The position numbers and the translations under genes are program-made. This document shows positions 56,948 to 64,000 of a stretch of 64,000 nt of DNA, piece by piece (the first letter of the stretch is position 1; the number at the start of each line of letters is the position of its first letter). The notes below the pieces were generated by a model. It ran no database searches. It was given only the letters and a program-made list of their open reading frames with translations, and had not been told where the DNA came from. Origin of the DNA: Candidatus Desulfofervidus auxilii (GTDB lineage Bacteria; Desulfobacterota; Desulfofervidia; Desulfofervidales; Desulfofervidaceae); assembly GCA_030262725.1 (NCBI GenBank), contig JAJSZS010000003.1, positions 64,001-128,000 of the forward strand, read 5' to 3'.

Positions 56948-57955
56948 ATGAGTATAAAGGTAGCTATAAACGGATTTGGTAGGATTGGACGTTGCTTTTT
57001 AAGGAGGGCAATGGAATATAAGGATATAGAGGTGGTTGTTATAAATGACCTTATGGCAACCCCTGAGGCGGCAGCCTATTTATTTAAGTATGATTCTGTC
57101 TATCGCAAATACAAGGGTAGTGTTAGCTATGAAAATAATTCTCTAATTGTAGATGGAAAAAACATCACTATTACAAGGGAAAGAGACCCTGAAGTCCTCC
57201 CATGGAAAAGGTTGGATATCGATGTAGTAGTTGAATGTACAGGCTGTTTTACAGACAAGGAGGCAGCAGAAAGGCATCTTAAAGCAGGGGCAAAAAAGGT
57301 AATTATCAGTGCCCCTTCTAAAAACGCAGATGCAACTGTTGTATTGGGAGTAAATGAAGATATCTACAATCCAGAAAAACACAACATCATCTCTTTGGCC
57401 TCCTGCACTACAAATTCTCTAGCGCCTGTAGCTAAGGTGTTAAATGATTCATTCGGTATTGAAAGCTTAATTATAACTGCTATCCATGCCTATACAGCAG
57501 GGCAAGCCCTTGTTGACTCCTTTGGCAAAAGGCTTCGTCGGGCAAGGGCAGCTGGTGTTTCAATCATCCCTACTAGTACTGGAGCAACTATAGCCACTGA
57601 ACAAGTTTTGCCAGAGCTAAAAGGAAAGATGACAGGTCTGGCCATGAGGGTACCTATAATCTGTGGTTCTGTAACTGATATTGTAGCCATTCTTAGAAGG
57701 GAGGTAACAGCAGAGGAAATAAACAATACCCTAAGGATGTACTCAAAAGAAAGGATGAAGGGTATACTTGAAGTAACCGATGATAGAATAGTCTCTAGCG
57801 ACATAATAGGAAATTCACACTCTGCCATTGTAGATGCAGTCTCAACCATGGTATTGCAAAAAAGGGTTGTTAAGGTTCTATCATGGTATGACAATGAGTG
57901 GGCATATGCATGTAGACTGGTTGATTTTACAAAGTTAATAGGAAGGTTATTATAA
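56948..57955 (+). CDS. gap: Glyceraldehyde-3-phosphate dehydrogenase, type I
   Basis: Central glycolysis/gluconeogenesis enzyme. The 335 residues start with the NAD-binding VAINGFGRIGRCFLRR. Asp34 (VINDLMA) favours NAD. Catalytic Cys153 lies in SLASCTTNSLAPV, with the following conserved TAIHAYTAGQ and SVTDIVAILRR. WYDNEWAYACR is near the end. AAAAAGGGTC precedes the ATG. From here to the right edge the base composition is visibly higher in G+C than before. Confidence 0.96.
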   Translation: MSIKVAINGFGRIGRCFLRRAMEYKDIEVVVINDLMATPEAAAYLFKYDSVYRKYKGSVSYENNSLIVDGKNITITRERDPEVLPWKRLDIDVVVECTGCFTDKEAAERHLKAGAKKVIISAPSKNADATVVLGVNEDIYNPEKHNIISLASCTTNSLAPVAKVLNDSFGIESLIITAIHAYTAGQALVDSFGKRLRRARAAGVSIIPTSTGATIATEQVLPELKGKMTGLAMRVPIICGSVTDIVAILRREVTAEEINNTLRMYSKERMKGILEVTDDRIVSSDIIGNSHSAIVDAVSTMVLQKRVVKVLSWYDNEWAYACRLVDFTKLIGRLL

Positions 57956-57965
57956 GGAGTAAAAG

Positions 57966-58154
57966 ATGATTAACTCTCAAAAAGAAAAACAAATCAAGGA
58001 ATTTTATAGTCAGGCTACAAAATTGCTCGTAAACATGGGGATTTTAAAAAATGTAAACCCTAGCTGGACTGAATTATTGGAGGCCATAGAACATATGGCA
58101 GAATTGATAGACATCTATTCAGAGGAATACCACCCAGATGACATTACTGAATAA
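57966..58154 (+). CDS. Hypothetical 62-residue helical protein
   Basis: I do not recognise it. The sequence (KQIKEFYSQATKLLVNMG; NPSWTELLEAIEHMAELIDI; EEYHPDDITE) is acidic and predicted mostly helical, without cysteines or a membrane span. AAGGAGT precedes the ATG. It lies 10 bases after GAPDH, so it is likely co-transcribed with it, and it is convergent with the NtrC-type regulator gene. Confidence 0.6.
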   Translation: MINSQKEKQIKEFYSQATKLLVNMGILKNVNPSWTELLEAIEHMAELIDIYSEEYHPDDITE

Positions 58155-58162
58155 TTCATAGT

Positions 58163-59551
58163 TTAATCGCGAAATGAAGAAGATTTAAGATTGGCAATCT
58201 TCATTAGACGGTGAAGATACTGCCTCTTCACACCACATATCTTTGCGGCTTCAGAAACATTGCCTTTACATTGTCTTAAGACATAGCTTAAATATTGATG
58301 ATAGAAATCTACCAATATTTGGCGTTTTGCCTTTTTGAGTGGTATACTCCATATCTCTTCAGTAGAACTCTCAGATTGTAAAGAGGTCATGGGATCAATC
58401 TCTGATGCCTGGATGTATTCTCCCTGACAGATAATCACTGCTCTCTCAATCACATTTTGTAACTCCCTTATATTGCCCGGCCAATCTCTTGTCATTAATT
58501 TTGACATAGCAGCTTGCGAAAATCCCTTAATAGACTTCTTATTTGCTTTTGCATACTTTTCCAGAAAATAGTGTGCCAAAATAGGGATATCTTCTCTCCT
58601 CTCCCTTAATGGAGGCAAGTGGATACTAATCACATTAAGTCGATAATACAGATCTTCTCTAAATCTTCCCTGTTTTACTAGTTCTAACAAATTCCTATTT
58701 GTGGCGGCAATGATACGTGTATCTGCCCTCTTATTCTTTGTGCTACCAACGGGGCGAAATTCACCATCTTGTAAAAAACGCAAAAGCTTTGTTTGCATAA
58801 GTAGGTTTAAATCACTTACCTCATCCAGAAAGAGTGTCCCACCATTAGCCTCTTCTACTAGTCCAATTTTATCTCTAATTGCCCCAGAAAAGGCACCTCT
58901 TACGTGTCCAAAAAACTCACTCTCAATCAAGGTTTCAGGGATGGCACTACAGTTTACAGGGACAAATGGTTTATCACTGCGCAGACTATGACGGTGCAAG
59001 GCTCTGGCTACAAGCTCTTTACCAGTACCACTTTCCCCACTAATAACTACTGTAGCTGATGTCTTTGCCACTTGGAGGATGTATCTGTAAATGGATTGCA
59101 TAACCTTGCTTTTTCCTATAATAAAATCAACTTCCTTTTCCTTGGCCAATTCCTCTTTTAATGCCTTATTTTCCCTCTTTAACTTTTGCAAATCCATAGT
59201 CCTTTGGATAGTAAGAAGAATCTGCTCCGGTTTAAATGGTTTTGTAATAAAATCAATAGCCCCAATCTTCATGGCTTCTACAGCAGATTCTATTGTTCCG
59301 TAGGCAGTAATGATAATTACAGCAGTATCAGGCTCTATTTCCTTTATCTTCCTTAGAACCTCCATCCCACTCATACCTGGCATCTTCAAATCCAAAAGCA
59401 CTAGATCAAAGTAGGTATCTTGAATAAGCCTTATTGCCCTCTTTGGTTCAGGGGTAACTGTTACCTCATAATCTGTCTTGCCTTCAATAATCCTTTTTAG
59501 CAAGGAAAGCATGTCTATCTCATCATCTATAATCAAGATTTTACCTAACAT
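58163..59551 (-). CDS. NtrC-family response regulator (sigma-54 activator)
   Basis: A transcription activator for sigma-54 promoters. The receiver domain (1-120) has phospho-acceptor Asp54 (VLLDLKMPG) and Asp10-Glu11. The AAA+ domain (about 142-370) has Walker A GESGTGKE at 172-179 and the sigma-54 loop GAFSGA at 219-224, a Ser-for-Thr version of the common GAFTGA, plus Walker B GGTLFLDEVSDL. A Fis-type helix-turn-helix is at about 430-458 (GNVSEAAKICGVKRQYLHRL). It lies 4 bases after its sensor kinase gene, with which it forms a pair. Confidence 0.95.
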   Translation of the reverse strand: MLGKILIIDDEIDMLSLLKRIIEGKTDYEVTVTPEPKRAIRLIQDTYFDLVLLDLKMPGMSGMEVLRKIKEIEPDTAVIIITAYGTIESAVEAMKIGAIDFITKPFKPEQILLTIQRTMDLQKLKRENKALKEELAKEKEVDFIIGKSKVMQSIYRYILQVAKTSATVVISGESGTGKELVARALHRHSLRSDKPFVPVNCSAIPETLIESEFFGHVRGAFSGAIRDKIGLVEEANGGTLFLDEVSDLNLLMQTKLLRFLQDGEFRPVGSTKNKRADTRIIAATNRNLLELVKQGRFREDLYYRLNVISIHLPPLRERREDIPILAHYFLEKYAKANKKSIKGFSQAAMSKLMTRDWPGNIRELQNVIERAVIICQGEYIQASEIDPMTSLQSESSTEEIWSIPLKKAKRQILVDFYHQYLSYVLRQCKGNVSEAAKICGVKRQYLHRLMKIANLKSSSFRD

Positions 59552-59555
59552 CTCC

Positions 59556-61577
59556 TTATTCCTCAGCTATGGGTAAACTAACAATAAATGTTACTCCTTT
59601 CTTTTGATTTTTACAAATAATTGTCCCACCATATTTTTTTACAATCCCATAGCTAATGGAAAGACCAAGGCCTGTCCCTTTTTCTTTGGTAGTAAAAAAT
59701 GGGTCAAAAATCCTTTCTATTAATTCCTCTCTAATACCACAACCTGTATCCTGAAAGGATATCTCTACACACCTTGTATCTAGATTAAACTTTGTACTAA
59801 TAAAAAGTCTCCCTTTGCTGTCCATGGCATCCATAGCATTTGTAATAAGGTTCAAAAATACCTGTTGCAGTTCCTGTTCATCCCCCCTTACTAGCGGTAA
59901 ATTTTTGGCAAAGTCTGTGTGAAGTTCAATATTATTTACCTCTAATGTATGTTTGACAATGTTTAAAAGACCTTCCAAACTTTTATTTACATCTGCTATT
60001 TTATACCCATCATCCTTTGTCCGTGCAAAATTTAGTAAGTTTTCTACAATATTCTTACAGTGTAAGGCATGTTTTTCTATGGTCTTAAGGTCTTTATATG
60101 ACTGTGATTCTTTGGGTGTATTTTCCATAAGTAGATTACAAAAACCAATAATGATCCCCAGTGGATTATTGATTTCATGAGCAACCCCTGCAGCCAATGT
60201 ACCTATGGAAGCCAATTTTTCAGCATTTACCAATTGTTCCTCTGCCTGTTTAATCTCTGTGATATCCCTAGCAATACACAGAATCTCTTTAATATCTCCT
60301 AGATTAAGGGGCATAAACTTTGTATTTAACCAATATTTTTGACTATTTACCTCAATTGTATGTTCCATATTTACAGTTTGCCCACGGGAGAGTTGTTCTA
60401 GAACCCCTTTACTCTGCTGTTCTGACCAATGAAAAAGCATCCTAAAATCCATACCCAAAATTTCCTTATCTTTTGAGAAAAAGCTTAAAGTCGCCTTATT
60501 TGCAGAAATGAGTCTTCCATTTAAATCTAAGGTAAAGATCAAGTCATCTGCCCCCTCTATAAGGAGTCTGTATCTTTTTTCTGATTTTTTTAGAATTTCT
60601 GTTTTTCTGGCTACTTCTTCTTTTAATAGATTACTAAATCTTCTTTCAGAGATAAGCAAAAAAAGACCTACTAATAATAATGCAAAGATTACCGCACCCT
60701 GCAAAAAGAAGTGCCTAAGGTAAGCTCTATGGATAACAGCATTTACCTCCTGTTCTGGGGCACAAACAGCTACAGACCATATAGTTGATGTATAAGGTAG
60801 GTGTATAGGCGTATAGGCAACAAGTTTATTAAAGTATTTTTTTGTTTCTCCATGCCATAGGGAAGCATATTCTCCTGTACCTTCTTCTCCATTAAGCATC
60901 TTTTTCTGTAGTATATCTATCTTTTTAAAGGGAAAATATGGAGCTTCCTCATGCCTTGCCTTAAATGCATTCTTTCCTACAAATTTCTTGATAGGGTGAA
61001 AGATAAAATATCCATTTTGATCAATTACCCATGCATAGCCGGTCTTGCCAGAACGAATCTTATCTACATGGCCCTTTACCAATTTGTAGACATCTACCAA
61101 AAAGACTGCTATTTTATCTTCAGTTAAAGGACAAGCCAAAACCAAAATTTGATTTTTCTTTAGTGTCAAAAAATGCAAAAAGGGACCAGTTAGTCTTTTT
61201 TTCTGAAACAAAGAGGAAAGGTTCTTGATTAAGTCTCTTCCTGCACTTATCAATGTCTTACCATTTATATCTACTATCCCCACACTATCTATACCTTTTT
61301 CTTTTACACGTTCATAGACCCCCTCTAACAATGTTTTAGAAATAGGCATACCCTGTTGAACAATATATCTAATAGATATCAATTCCTGCATAGCATAATT
61401 TAGGCTATTCTCTATCTCATGCGCTGCTTGACGGGCCAAAATGAGTTGCTGTCCATTAAACTGCTCACTTACAATCCTCTTTAAATCCCTTGCAGAATAC
61501 AGACCAAAAAAGAATGCAATTATAAGAACCACACAAATACACAAACCAACAATAACCAAGAAGCCTTTTCTACGCAT
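59556..61577 (-). CDS. Membrane sensor histidine kinase (Cache-PAS-HisKA)
   Basis: The likely partner of the adjacent NtrC-type regulator. Membrane spans at about 7-26 and 292-310 enclose a periplasmic Cache-like sensor (about 30-290, with SGKTGYAWVIDQNGYFIFHP). A PAS domain follows (about 333-445, YRLLIEGADDLIFTLDLNGR). The dimerisation helix has the phospho-acceptor His467 (GVAHEINNPLG), and the ATPase domain has NLITNAMDAMD, DTGCGI and GTGLGLSIS. No Shine-Dalgarno is present; TAAAAT lies 7 bases before the ATG. Confidence 0.93.
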   Translation of the reverse strand: MRRKGFLVIVGLCICVVLIIAFFFGLYSARDLKRIVSEQFNGQQLILARQAAHEIENSLNYAMQELISIRYIVQQGMPISKTLLEGVYERVKEKGIDSVGIVDINGKTLISAGRDLIKNLSSLFQKKRLTGPFLHFLTLKKNQILVLACPLTEDKIAVFLVDVYKLVKGHVDKIRSGKTGYAWVIDQNGYFIFHPIKKFVGKNAFKARHEEAPYFPFKKIDILQKKMLNGEEGTGEYASLWHGETKKYFNKLVAYTPIHLPYTSTIWSVAVCAPEQEVNAVIHRAYLRHFFLQGAVIFALLLVGLFLLISERRFSNLLKEEVARKTEILKKSEKRYRLLIEGADDLIFTLDLNGRLISANKATLSFFSKDKEILGMDFRMLFHWSEQQSKGVLEQLSRGQTVNMEHTIEVNSQKYWLNTKFMPLNLGDIKEILCIARDITEIKQAEEQLVNAEKLASIGTLAAGVAHEINNPLGIIIGFCNLLMENTPKESQSYKDLKTIEKHALHCKNIVENLLNFARTKDDGYKIADVNKSLEGLLNIVKHTLEVNNIELHTDFAKNLPLVRGDEQELQQVFLNLITNAMDAMDSKGRLFISTKFNLDTRCVEISFQDTGCGIREELIERIFDPFFTTKEKGTGLGLSISYGIVKKYGGTIICKNQKKGVTFIVSLPIAEE

Positions 61578-61590: not shown

Positions 61591-61657
61591 ACACAAATTA
61601 GTTTGGTCTAAAAGCTTTGCGTTTTTTCTCTATTTAATTCAAAAAATGTGCTAACAA

Positions 61658-61752: not shown

Positions 61753-61785
61753 TTTGTAGACACTTAACAAAGGTGTGTCCACAAA
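61753..61785. promoter_or_regulatory. Inverted repeat: likely upstream activator site
   Basis: Arms TTTGTAGACAC (61753-61763) and GTGTCCACAAA (61775-61785) match with one mismatch around an 11-base spacer. It lies about 75-105 bases before the inferred sigma-54 transcript start, the distance usual for NtrC-type activator sites. Confidence 0.7.
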
Positions 61786-61832
61786 TGTTTGACGTCTGTC
61801 TATTGATTTGGTGTATTCTTATAACTTTTTAA

Positions 61833-61848
61833 TTGGCACACTTTTTGA
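61833..61848 (+). promoter_or_regulatory. Sigma-54 promoter of the permease-sat operon
   Basis: TTGGCAC (61833-61839), five bases and TTGA (61845-61848) match the -24/-12 consensus with TTGA for TTGC. The GG-to-G spacing is correct at 10 bases. The inferred start is near 61859, leaving about 25 bases before the ATG with AGGAGG at 61869. Confidence 0.75.
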
Positions 61849-61883
61849 GTAAGTTCAAAAAGAAAAACAGGAGGAAATGTCAG

Positions 61884-62849
61884 ATGATTAAGAAAGGATT
61901 TTTGATATTTCTGATTCTAATTTTTAGTGCAGTCACAGCCTATGCAGCAGAGGTAGCACAACAAACAACAGGAATGAATCCAGTATTGTTTTTCTTTATA
62001 TTCCTTATTGTGTGCATAATCATAGGCATCTTCGCTGTGCTGGCAGGCGTTGGTGGGGGCGTTATATTCACACCAGTTATGATGGGATTTACCCCTATAG
62101 ATTCATTTATTGTCAGGGCTACAGGGCTTTTTGTAGCCATGTCAGGTGCACTTGTAGCAGCAAGGCCATTTTTGAGAAGGGGTATTGCCAATATAAAGAT
62201 CTTGTTTTGGTCAGCAGCACCTTATGCAGTTTGTTGTGTCATTGGTGCTCTGCTTGCAGGGTATGTGAAGGCTACCATGGGCATAAAGGGTGAGGCATTT
62301 GTCAGAGGTGCACTAGGTCTTCTTGTAATTGGGATAGGTCTTCTATTTATATTTGCAGGAAAGAGAATAGAGTATCCAGAAGTAAAGAATGTGGACAGCT
62401 TTACAGAAAGGATTGGACTTGCCATGGCCTATTGGGAAGAGTCACTAAAAACTGTAGTGGACTATAAGGTGAAAAATTCTCATATTGCACTTCTTCTCTT
62501 CTGTGGTACTGGTCTAATCTCTGGTTTTTTTGGACTTGGTGCAGGCTGGGCCATGGTTCCTGTATTTAATCTGGTAATGCTTGCACCACTAAAGGTAGCC
62601 GCTACATGCAGCAAGGTATTGATTGGAATAGGAGATACAGCAGCTATCTGGCCATATATTATGGGTGGGGGTATATTTCCACTCTTTGCTGTACCATGCA
62701 TGATTGGTCTTATAGTTGGCACCCTTATAGGGGCAAAGATTATGCTTAAGGTAAAGGCTGGATTTGTTAGGTGGATAATCATAGTAATCATGTTCTTTGC
62801 AGGCATAAGGTTGATATTAAAAGCCATAAAATTATGGGGTATGGCATAG
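61884..62849 (+). CDS. TauE/SafE-family permease, likely sulfate or sulfite transporter
   Basis: A multi-pass inner-membrane protein of 321 residues. It starts at ATG 61884 (MIKKGFLIFLILIFSAVTAY); the frame extends to a TTG at 61833, but that lies in the promoter. About eight to nine hydrophobic segments include the family-typical LAGVGGGVIFTPVMM near 51-65 and SGFFGLGAGWAMVPVFNL near 214-231, two pseudo-symmetric Gly-rich repeats. Its operon with sat makes sulfate import the best guess; the sequence alone does not settle sulfate against sulfite or taurine-derived ions. Confidence 0.85.
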   Translation: MIKKGFLIFLILIFSAVTAYAAEVAQQTTGMNPVLFFFIFLIVCIIIGIFAVLAGVGGGVIFTPVMMGFTPIDSFIVRATGLFVAMSGALVAARPFLRRGIANIKILFWSAAPYAVCCVIGALLAGYVKATMGIKGEAFVRGALGLLVIGIGLLFIFAGKRIEYPEVKNVDSFTERIGLAMAYWEESLKTVVDYKVKNSHIALLLFCGTGLISGFFGLGAGWAMVPVFNLVMLAPLKVAATCSKVLIGIGDTAAIWPYIMGGGIFPLFAVPCMIGLIVGTLIGAKIMLKVKAGFVRWIIIVIMFFAGIRLILKAIKLWGMA

Positions 62850-62859
62850 GAGGTGGATT

Positions 62860-63291
62860 ATGGAAGAGAGACCAAAACCACCATTAGCAGGCATTGTCTA
62901 TGGGGACTTTGCTTACTGGATAGCCATTGCTGGAATGATAATTGGTATCATTGGGATAGTCCTTTATCTTGGAGGGATACACCAATTTATAAATGCAAAA
63001 TTCCTCTTGTCACAGCTTTGGTCAGGCAAGACCGCCCCTGAGATATGGAAGATGGCTACTGGAAAGATGGTCCATGGGCATTGGTATCTGCATAAACTCT
63101 CATATAGTGATGCAATCGCCATGCTTGGTGTAGGTATATGCTGTCTTTCAGCGGTTTTTGGAATGTGGGCAGCTTGCATAACAATGCTTACTAGTAAAGG
63201 GAAAATAGGGACTTTATTTTTCATTTTAGCAGCAACGGTTACAGTGATATTGACATTAAGTGCCTTGGGAATAATTTCACTTCGTCATTAG
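62860..63291 (+). CDS. Small three-span membrane protein of the sat operon
   Basis: A 143-residue protein with hydrophobic segments at about 18-42, 85-107 and 116-139. A soluble stretch between the first two carries HQFINAKFLLSQLWSGKTAP and GHWYLHKLSYSDA. I do not know a named family for certain; small membrane proteins of this kind (for example DUF1634 types) accompany TauE/SafE permeases. AGGAGG precedes the ATG and the gene is 10 bases after the permease, so it may be an accessory subunit. Confidence 0.7.
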   Translation: MEERPKPPLAGIVYGDFAYWIAIAGMIIGIIGIVLYLGGIHQFINAKFLLSQLWSGKTAPEIWKMATGKMVHGHWYLHKLSYSDAIAMLGVGICCLSAVFGMWAACITMLTSKGKIGTLFFILAATVTVILTLSALGIISLRH

Positions 63292-63300
63292 GAGGATAAG

Positions 63301-63504
63301 ATGGAAGAAAAAAAACAAAAAATAATAGATTTTTTGAAGAGTATTGGAGGAAAAGGAGTGGCTACCCAAGCAGAGATTGCTAAAGGTACTGGGATAGACA
63401 GACGCATTGTCATGAAATTAATAAAGGAACTAGAAAAGGAAGGGAAGGTAACCAGTGGGGGCAGGGCGGCTGGTGTAGGAGGATATAAACTGGTTGACTC
63501 ATAG
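63301..63504 (+). CDS. Small winged-helix protein, DsrD-like in form
   Basis: A 67-residue protein with an N-terminal helix (MEEKKQKIIDFLKSIGG), helix-turn-helix (QAEIAKGTGIDRRIVMKLIK) and a beta wing (KVTSGGRAAGVGGYKLVDS). Size and the opening pattern recall DsrD, the small winged-helix protein of sulfate reducers that stimulates DsrAB; this is a recalled likeness, not an alignment. Alternatives are a DNA-binding regulator of the operon. AGGAGG precedes the ATG, and it is 41 bases before sat. Confidence 0.7.
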   Translation: MEEKKQKIIDFLKSIGGKGVATQAEIAKGTGIDRRIVMKLIKELEKEGKVTSGGRAAGVGGYKLVDS

Positions 63505-63545: not shown

Positions 63546-64000
63546 ATGCTAAAGATTGAAAGACCTTTGCCTCATGGGGGAAGGCTAGTAGAAAGGGTTG
63601 TAAGAAATCCTGAGCTGGCAAAAAAGATGGCAAAAGGTTGTCCGGTTTATGATATTAAGCCCACGCTTCACTTTGAGACAGGTGTGCCTGTAAGAAATGT
63701 CTATAGGGAAATAATGTCTATATGCTATGGATTTTTTAGCCCTGTTGAGGGGTCTATGACACAGGCAGAGGTTGAGAGGATATTAAAGGAAAGGAGGCTT
63801 CTGAATGATTGGGTATTCCCTTATCCATTGGTCTTTGACATCAGTGAAGAGGACTACAAAAAGCTGGGTGTAACATCAGGGGATAGGGTGCTCCTTAGGC
63901 TTAAAGGAGAGCCCTTTGCCGTACTTGATGTTGAAGAGGTATGGAGGATTGATAACCCAGAAGAACTTGCCCATAAAACATTTGGTACACCTGAAGATAA
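63546..64000 (+). CDS. sat: Sulfate adenylyltransferase (ATP sulfurylase), 3' end outside window
   Basis: Activates sulfate with ATP to APS, the first step of dissimilatory sulfate reduction. The first 151 residues are visible. The open frame runs to the window edge. It shows PHGGRLVERVVRNPELAKKM, then DIKPTLHFETGVPVRNVYRE, and FFSPVEGSMTQAEVERIL, all family-typical of the N-terminal PUA-like domain; VFDISEED follows. The active-site motifs lie beyond the edge. TGAGGAGG precedes the ATG. It is the fourth gene of the sigma-54-type operon. Confidence 0.95.
   Translation, partial: MLKIERPLPHGGRLVERVVRNPELAKKMAKGCPVYDIKPTLHFETGVPVRNVYREIMSICYGFFSPVEGSMTQAEVERILKERRLLNDWVFPYPLVFDISEEDYKKLGVTSGDRVLLRLKGEPFAVLDVEEVWRIDNPEELAHKTFGTPED

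Follow-up and report, generated by a model that had tools for sequence, protein, structure and literature searches.

A candidate sigma-54-dependent two-component switch for a second permease and ATP sulfurylase operon in Candidatus Desulfofervidus auxilii

During our analysis of the thermophilic sulfate reducer Candidatus Desulfofervidus auxilii we encountered genes for a sensor kinase and an NtrC-type response regulator that are divergent from an operon-like cluster in which a permease gene is followed by a second copy of sat, encoding ATP sulfurylase. We consider it reasonably probable that the two proteins form a two-component system dedicated to switching on a second, inducible operon for the uptake and activation of a sulfur oxyanion, most likely sulfate. 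The window, the whole stretch of 64,000 nucleotides that was analysed, comprises positions 64001-128000 of contig C3 in an assembly (G000) of 2,268,002 bp. A preliminary description had proposed that the pair switches on sulfate import and sat; a sigma-54 promoter, an enhancer-like repeat and the pairing of kinase and regulator with such operons in other genomes speak for the switch, but the permease is a TauE/TSUP-family protein with sulfate as a putative substrate.

The regulator (58163..59551) and the kinase (59556..61577) are encoded on the reverse strand. On the forward strand, the gene for the 321-aa TauE/TSUP-family permease (61884..62849; Pfam PF01925, 117.4 bits versus a gathering score of 32.6; ATG checked) is followed by that for a 143-aa membrane protein (62860..63291), which accompanies the TauE permease, since its gene is located 3' of close TauE homologs in 17 of the 17 loci examined and also in HotSeep-1 (G001, likewise Ca. 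Desulfofervidus auxilii). Next is a gene for a 67-aa winged-helix protein (63301..63504; Pfam HTH_24), which was absent from the preliminary account of the operon and has a 95% identical homolog directly 5' of sat in genome G005. The sat gene (63546..64000, continuing to C3:128910 beyond the window) scores above cut-off for NCBIfam sopT/PRK04149. The genes from permease to sat are co-directional, the winged-helix gene is flanked by gaps of 9 and 41 bases, and a scan of the region between permease and sat found no near-consensus sigma-70 promoter; sat may be co-transcribed with the permease. Past the window, sat is followed by genes encoding a DUF6955 protein, a 181-aa protein, a 406-aa outer-membrane-like protein and a TauE remnant. 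The 181-aa protein (L004:11373-11918) is internally shortened relative to its counterpart of 358 aa in HotSeep-1, and the last TauE-like gene (L004:13140-13550), also internally shortened (273 aa in HotSeep-1), looks decayed. The 406-aa protein gave no match to PDB sequences; in both HotSeep-1 and G004 its gene is provided with a TGGCATG-N4-TTGCC element of its own (L055:11490 and L092:1378), and for this reason it probably belongs to the sigma-54 set.

Pfam analysis bears out the divergent Cache-PAS kinase and NtrC-type regulator of the preliminary description, and the sigma-54 loop GAFSGA is indeed present at residue 219 of the latter. Response_reg and Sigma54_activat score above cut-off in the regulator; HTH_8 gave no score, and the C-terminal Fis-type HTH (ending ...GVKRQYLHRLMK) was recognised by alignment with homologs, in which it is kept. 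The protein scores below every NCBIfam equivalog cut-off shown, and a search of plasmids returned no match to it. GAFSGA is a T-to-S variant of GAFTGA that is common to all close orthologs, whereas homologs of 52-57% identity have FTGA. Coupling of this loop to the TTGA variant of the -12 element (see below) was considered and rejected, as G001 and the Desulfonauticus MAG (G059) combine FSGA with TTGC, and G089 and G051 combine FTGA with TTGA. The kinase has a dCache-PAS-HisKA-HATPase architecture, and its adjacency to the regulator is kept in orthologous loci (51-94% identity). A search of PDB sequences with an alignment of the kinase gave matches to the PAS domain and kinase core only, with none to the Cache domain, and an AlphaFold model of the sensor built from two sequences (pLDDT 55.6) was too poor for a structure search.

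The -24/-12 element TTGGCACACTTTTTGA (61833..61848, forward strand) was found as described, with TTGGCAC at 61833-61839 and TTGA at 61845-61848 separated by N5, and the permease ATG at 61884 lies 35 bases past it. Its -24 consensus and spacing match sigma-54, but the -12 dinucleotide is GA where the consensus is GC, a variant that recurs in relatives. TTGGCACN5TTGA occurs once in the whole 2.27-Mb genome (0 for a reversed-pattern control), canonical -24/-12 elements match 26 times genome-wide versus 0 in the control, and a single rpoN gene is present (C12:46671). A further candidate sigma-54 element, TTAGCACATTTTTTGA (61639..61654, reverse strand), faces the kinase gene and lines up with TTGGCACATCTCTTGA, which occupies the corresponding position in G005; it is weaker than the consensus, with TTGGCACN5TTGA before the kinase gene in G005, and autoregulation of the kinase gene through it is possible. 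The GAPDH and CBS promoters also scored as sigma-54-like but, by eye, are a better fit to extended -10 sigma-70 promoters and were rejected.

Upstream of the element lies the inverted repeat TTTGTAGACAC-N11-GTGTCCACAAA (61753..61785), the proposed enhancer (UAS), in which 10 of 11 positions are paired, the single mismatch being that noted in the preliminary description. The repeat alone is weak evidence, because 30% of dinucleotide shuffles of the same AT-rich intergenic region hold one of equal length and quality (any spacer of 0-25 bp); about five distinct repeats of this kind with at least 4 G/C per arm occur in the 64 kb. Neither repeat nor promoter is decisive alone, and the case for both is their conservation across genomes. 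The pattern TTTGNNGACA-N13-TGTCNNCAAA is found exactly at only 2 places in 8 genomes, here and at G005:C28:11909, in both cases in the corresponding position of an operon of the same type and at a similar distance from TTGGCACACTTTTTGA (47 bp here and 48 bp in G005). The conservation on which the earlier proposal depended is observed for both elements in this one relative, with matching geometry. Between these two loci 8/10 bases are kept in each arm and 2/13 in the spacer, and one arm position differs on both arms, thereby preserving the symmetry. The enhancer sequence is not recognisably alike in HotSeep-1, G059, G003 and G004; among nine promoters the best common word was GTGACA (6/9), which is marginal against shuffles (p about 0.03), and shared five-letter words were not significant against shuffles.

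In G005 the repeat and promoter are followed by a different TSUP permease and a 236-aa partner, and then by the winged-helix gene and sat (94%). The sat gene is cut by the contig end, and regulator and sat are on separate contigs. DNA identity across the block is 92-94%, whereas MetG is only 68% identical, so the block has been transferred horizontally or mis-binned and does not provide a deep comparison. The kinase-regulator-GAPDH block (window 56948-61577) is 94.1% identical at the DNA level to L093 over 4.7 kb, the other genome belonging to another family. The permease and partner genes of G005 form a 2-kb pair repeated in tandem with 99.95% identity (L094:5915-10029), the second copy being located between the sigma-54 promoter and the winged-helix-sat genes; this represents either a recent duplication or an assembly effect.

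Orthologs of the regulator (63-97% identity) are present in six genomes, namely all four family relatives, G005 and the Desulfonauticus MAG; the regulator contig of G002 is too short to show its neighbours. In HotSeep-1, G003, G004 and G059 the kinase-regulator orthologs adjoin genes for ATP sulfurylase and/or a TSUP permease, mostly with sigma-54 promoters. In HotSeep-1 the permease and its partner are grouped with the kinase and regulator; TTGGCATGAGTTTTGCC precedes the permease gene, and sat lies elsewhere, none being found near this locus. G003 and G004 carry TTGGCACAGAATTTGA (TTGGCACN5TTGA) 5' of an operon with Usp and sat-like genes adjoining the orthologous kinase-regulator genes, and in G059 sat, DUF6955, TauE and the 143-aa protein have the same orientation as kinase and regulator, TTGGCATACATATTGCC preceding the sat gene. 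The only close sat of this MAG (L008:3902-5760, 86%) has an apparent sigma-54 promoter, and no TTGACA-type promoter was seen upstream.

For more distant regulator homologs (50-57%) in other Desulfobacterota, 12-13 of the 18 loci examined include a TSUP gene at a distance of up to about 8 kb, most with no sat found near; the common partner is therefore the permease, and it seems from these arrangements that sat was added to the kinase-regulator-permease set in some lineages. TTGGCAY-N5-TTGA precedes the TSUP permeases adjoining regulator homologs of 55-57% identity in G089 and G051. Among close TSUP422-type targets it was present before two of six, with no recognisable element before the other four. 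A third TauE-type permease (49%) lies beside its own kinase and two regulators at L053:14774-16339 (G000:C8) and L056:8586-10157 (HotSeep-1); the element TTGGCATAnAAyTTGTA and an upstream near-palindrome TTATGTAACATAA are kept in both genomes, and this locus is apparently a separate sigma-54 permease switch.

The main copy of sat (C2:135353-136708) is 88% identical to that of the window and has a near-consensus sigma-70 promoter. By eye, TTGACA-N17-TATAAT-like promoters precede the housekeeping sat genes of G000 (C2), HotSeep-1, G003 and G004, and in HotSeep-1 and G009 the counterparts of the second TauE copy (C8), like that copy itself, are preceded by TTGACA-N17-TATTAA/G. Judging from these sequences, there are probably a constitutive set of sat and permease and an inducible one. 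The direct phosphorelay control of sat envisaged in the preliminary description would concern the second copy and not the main one. The accompanying view of sat as generally constitutive in sulfate reducers was too strong: in D. vulgaris the gene is repressed by Rex (Christensen et al., as cited in PMC11451228).

Could the -24/-12 match be fortuitous and the operon be transcribed from a sigma-70 promoter? The -12 GA would allow this, as would the AT richness of the region and its several weak matches to sigma-70 promoters, but these matches are only modestly in excess of shuffles (29 versus 20.8) and none upstream of the permease or of sat is near consensus, whereas the 16-mer is unique in the genome, identical in G005 and present as the same variant in G003 and G004, and we regard such a coincidence as very improbable. 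Alternatively, the 67-aa winged-helix protein might use the repeat as its operator to repress or tune the operon, with the two-component regulator acting elsewhere or at other sites. The position of the winged-helix gene directly 5' of sat in both genomes carrying the repeat is consistent with such a role, but the location of the repeat, some 75-107 bp before the predicted start, is typical of an enhancer and unusual for a repressor, its arms are spaced apart like two-site enhancers, and in HotSeep-1, G003 and G059 sigma-54 promoters occur at the corresponding loci with no winged-helix gene detected nearby; we think this arrangement unlikely.

As for the substrate, the switch may serve another sulfur compound (sulfite, thiosulfate or a sulfonate) or an organic acid, which the permease would move in or out, sat being present for a linked reason. 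TauE/TSUP substrates are poorly known (PMC5840216), and PMC4641369 describes their substrate specificity as being without data. The prevalence of TSUP genes without a nearby sat among the regulator homologs also fits this interpretation, as does a gene of G003 that follows the regulator, has its own sigma-54 element and, by our reading of the sequence, resembles acetyl-CoA synthetase. Set against this is the linkage of ATP sulfurylase in G000, G003, G004 and G059, and in G005 via the shared promoter, which involves two different types of sat. We regard a substrate of this kind as possible but somewhat doubtful.

In the two-component switch that we favour, the repeat at 61753-61785 would serve as an enhancer to which the phosphorylated regulator binds, making contact by looping with sigma-54 polymerase at 61833-61848, and transcription would begin near 61859. 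The transcript would encode the TauE/TSUP permease, its 143-aa partner, the winged-helix protein, ATP sulfurylase, the DUF6955 protein and probably the 406-aa outer-membrane-like protein. The separate sat (C2) and permease (C8) with their sigma-70 promoters would supply an always-on baseline, which the extra set would join when sulfate is limiting or demand is high. Sulfate reducers reserve strong sulfate accumulation for times of scarcity, a behaviour that implies high-affinity uptake under regulation (PMC5840216); sulfate limitation is our preferred guess for the signal because the physiology calls for such uptake. We put forward only tentatively the fuller scheme in which the pair is the regulator of inducible high-affinity uptake and activation of sulfate that the physiology leads one to expect. 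In this scheme a membrane sensor, on detecting low sulfate, would supplement the constitutive copies with another permease and another ATP sulfurylase, and the control cassette would have passed from family to family and been combined anew with different permeases.

Within the literature searched, which was limited in extent, we found no regulator of high-affinity sulfate uptake in sulfate reducers and no account of sat being controlled by a two-component regulator of the sigma-54 type. The conserved module of kinase, regulator and promoter, with its permease and spare ATP sulfurylase, is a concrete candidate for such a regulator of uptake, in a family that includes a partner bacterium of archaea that oxidise methane, and its candidate binding site and promoter are delimited to the single base. 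We take DVU1295 to be the sat gene of D. vulgaris. Neither DVU1295 nor the term "adenylyl" occurs in the main texts of PMC4641369 and PMC3333781, which report sigma-54 and two-component control of nine TSUP and PSE transporter operons in this species, including binding of the EBPs DVU0110 and DVUA0057 before the TSUP operon DVU0132-0133. Control of TSUP permeases by such systems is thus already known (PMC4641369), and the D. vulgaris operons likewise combine an NtrC-type regulator, a sigma-54 promoter and a TSUP permease target in a sulfate reducer; they differ from the present locus, in which an ATP sulfurylase gene is part of the apparent operon and the kinase and regulator genes adjoin it. 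The Rex system, too, acts on the transcription of sat in a sulfate reducer, but Rex is a one-component NADH-responsive repressor, in contrast to the proposed membrane-sensor phosphorelay activating a second sat copy. Activators of the NtrC/ZraR/AtoC type whose target operons are divergent share the domain layout and the enhancer upstream of a -24/-12 promoter, whereas here the loop is GAFSGA instead of GAFTGA, the -12 element is TTGA instead of TTGC, and the proposed target is sulfur uptake and activation. What looks new is the inclusion of sat within such a regulon, the pairing of constitutive and inducible sets, and the retention of the control cassette where the permease has been swapped.
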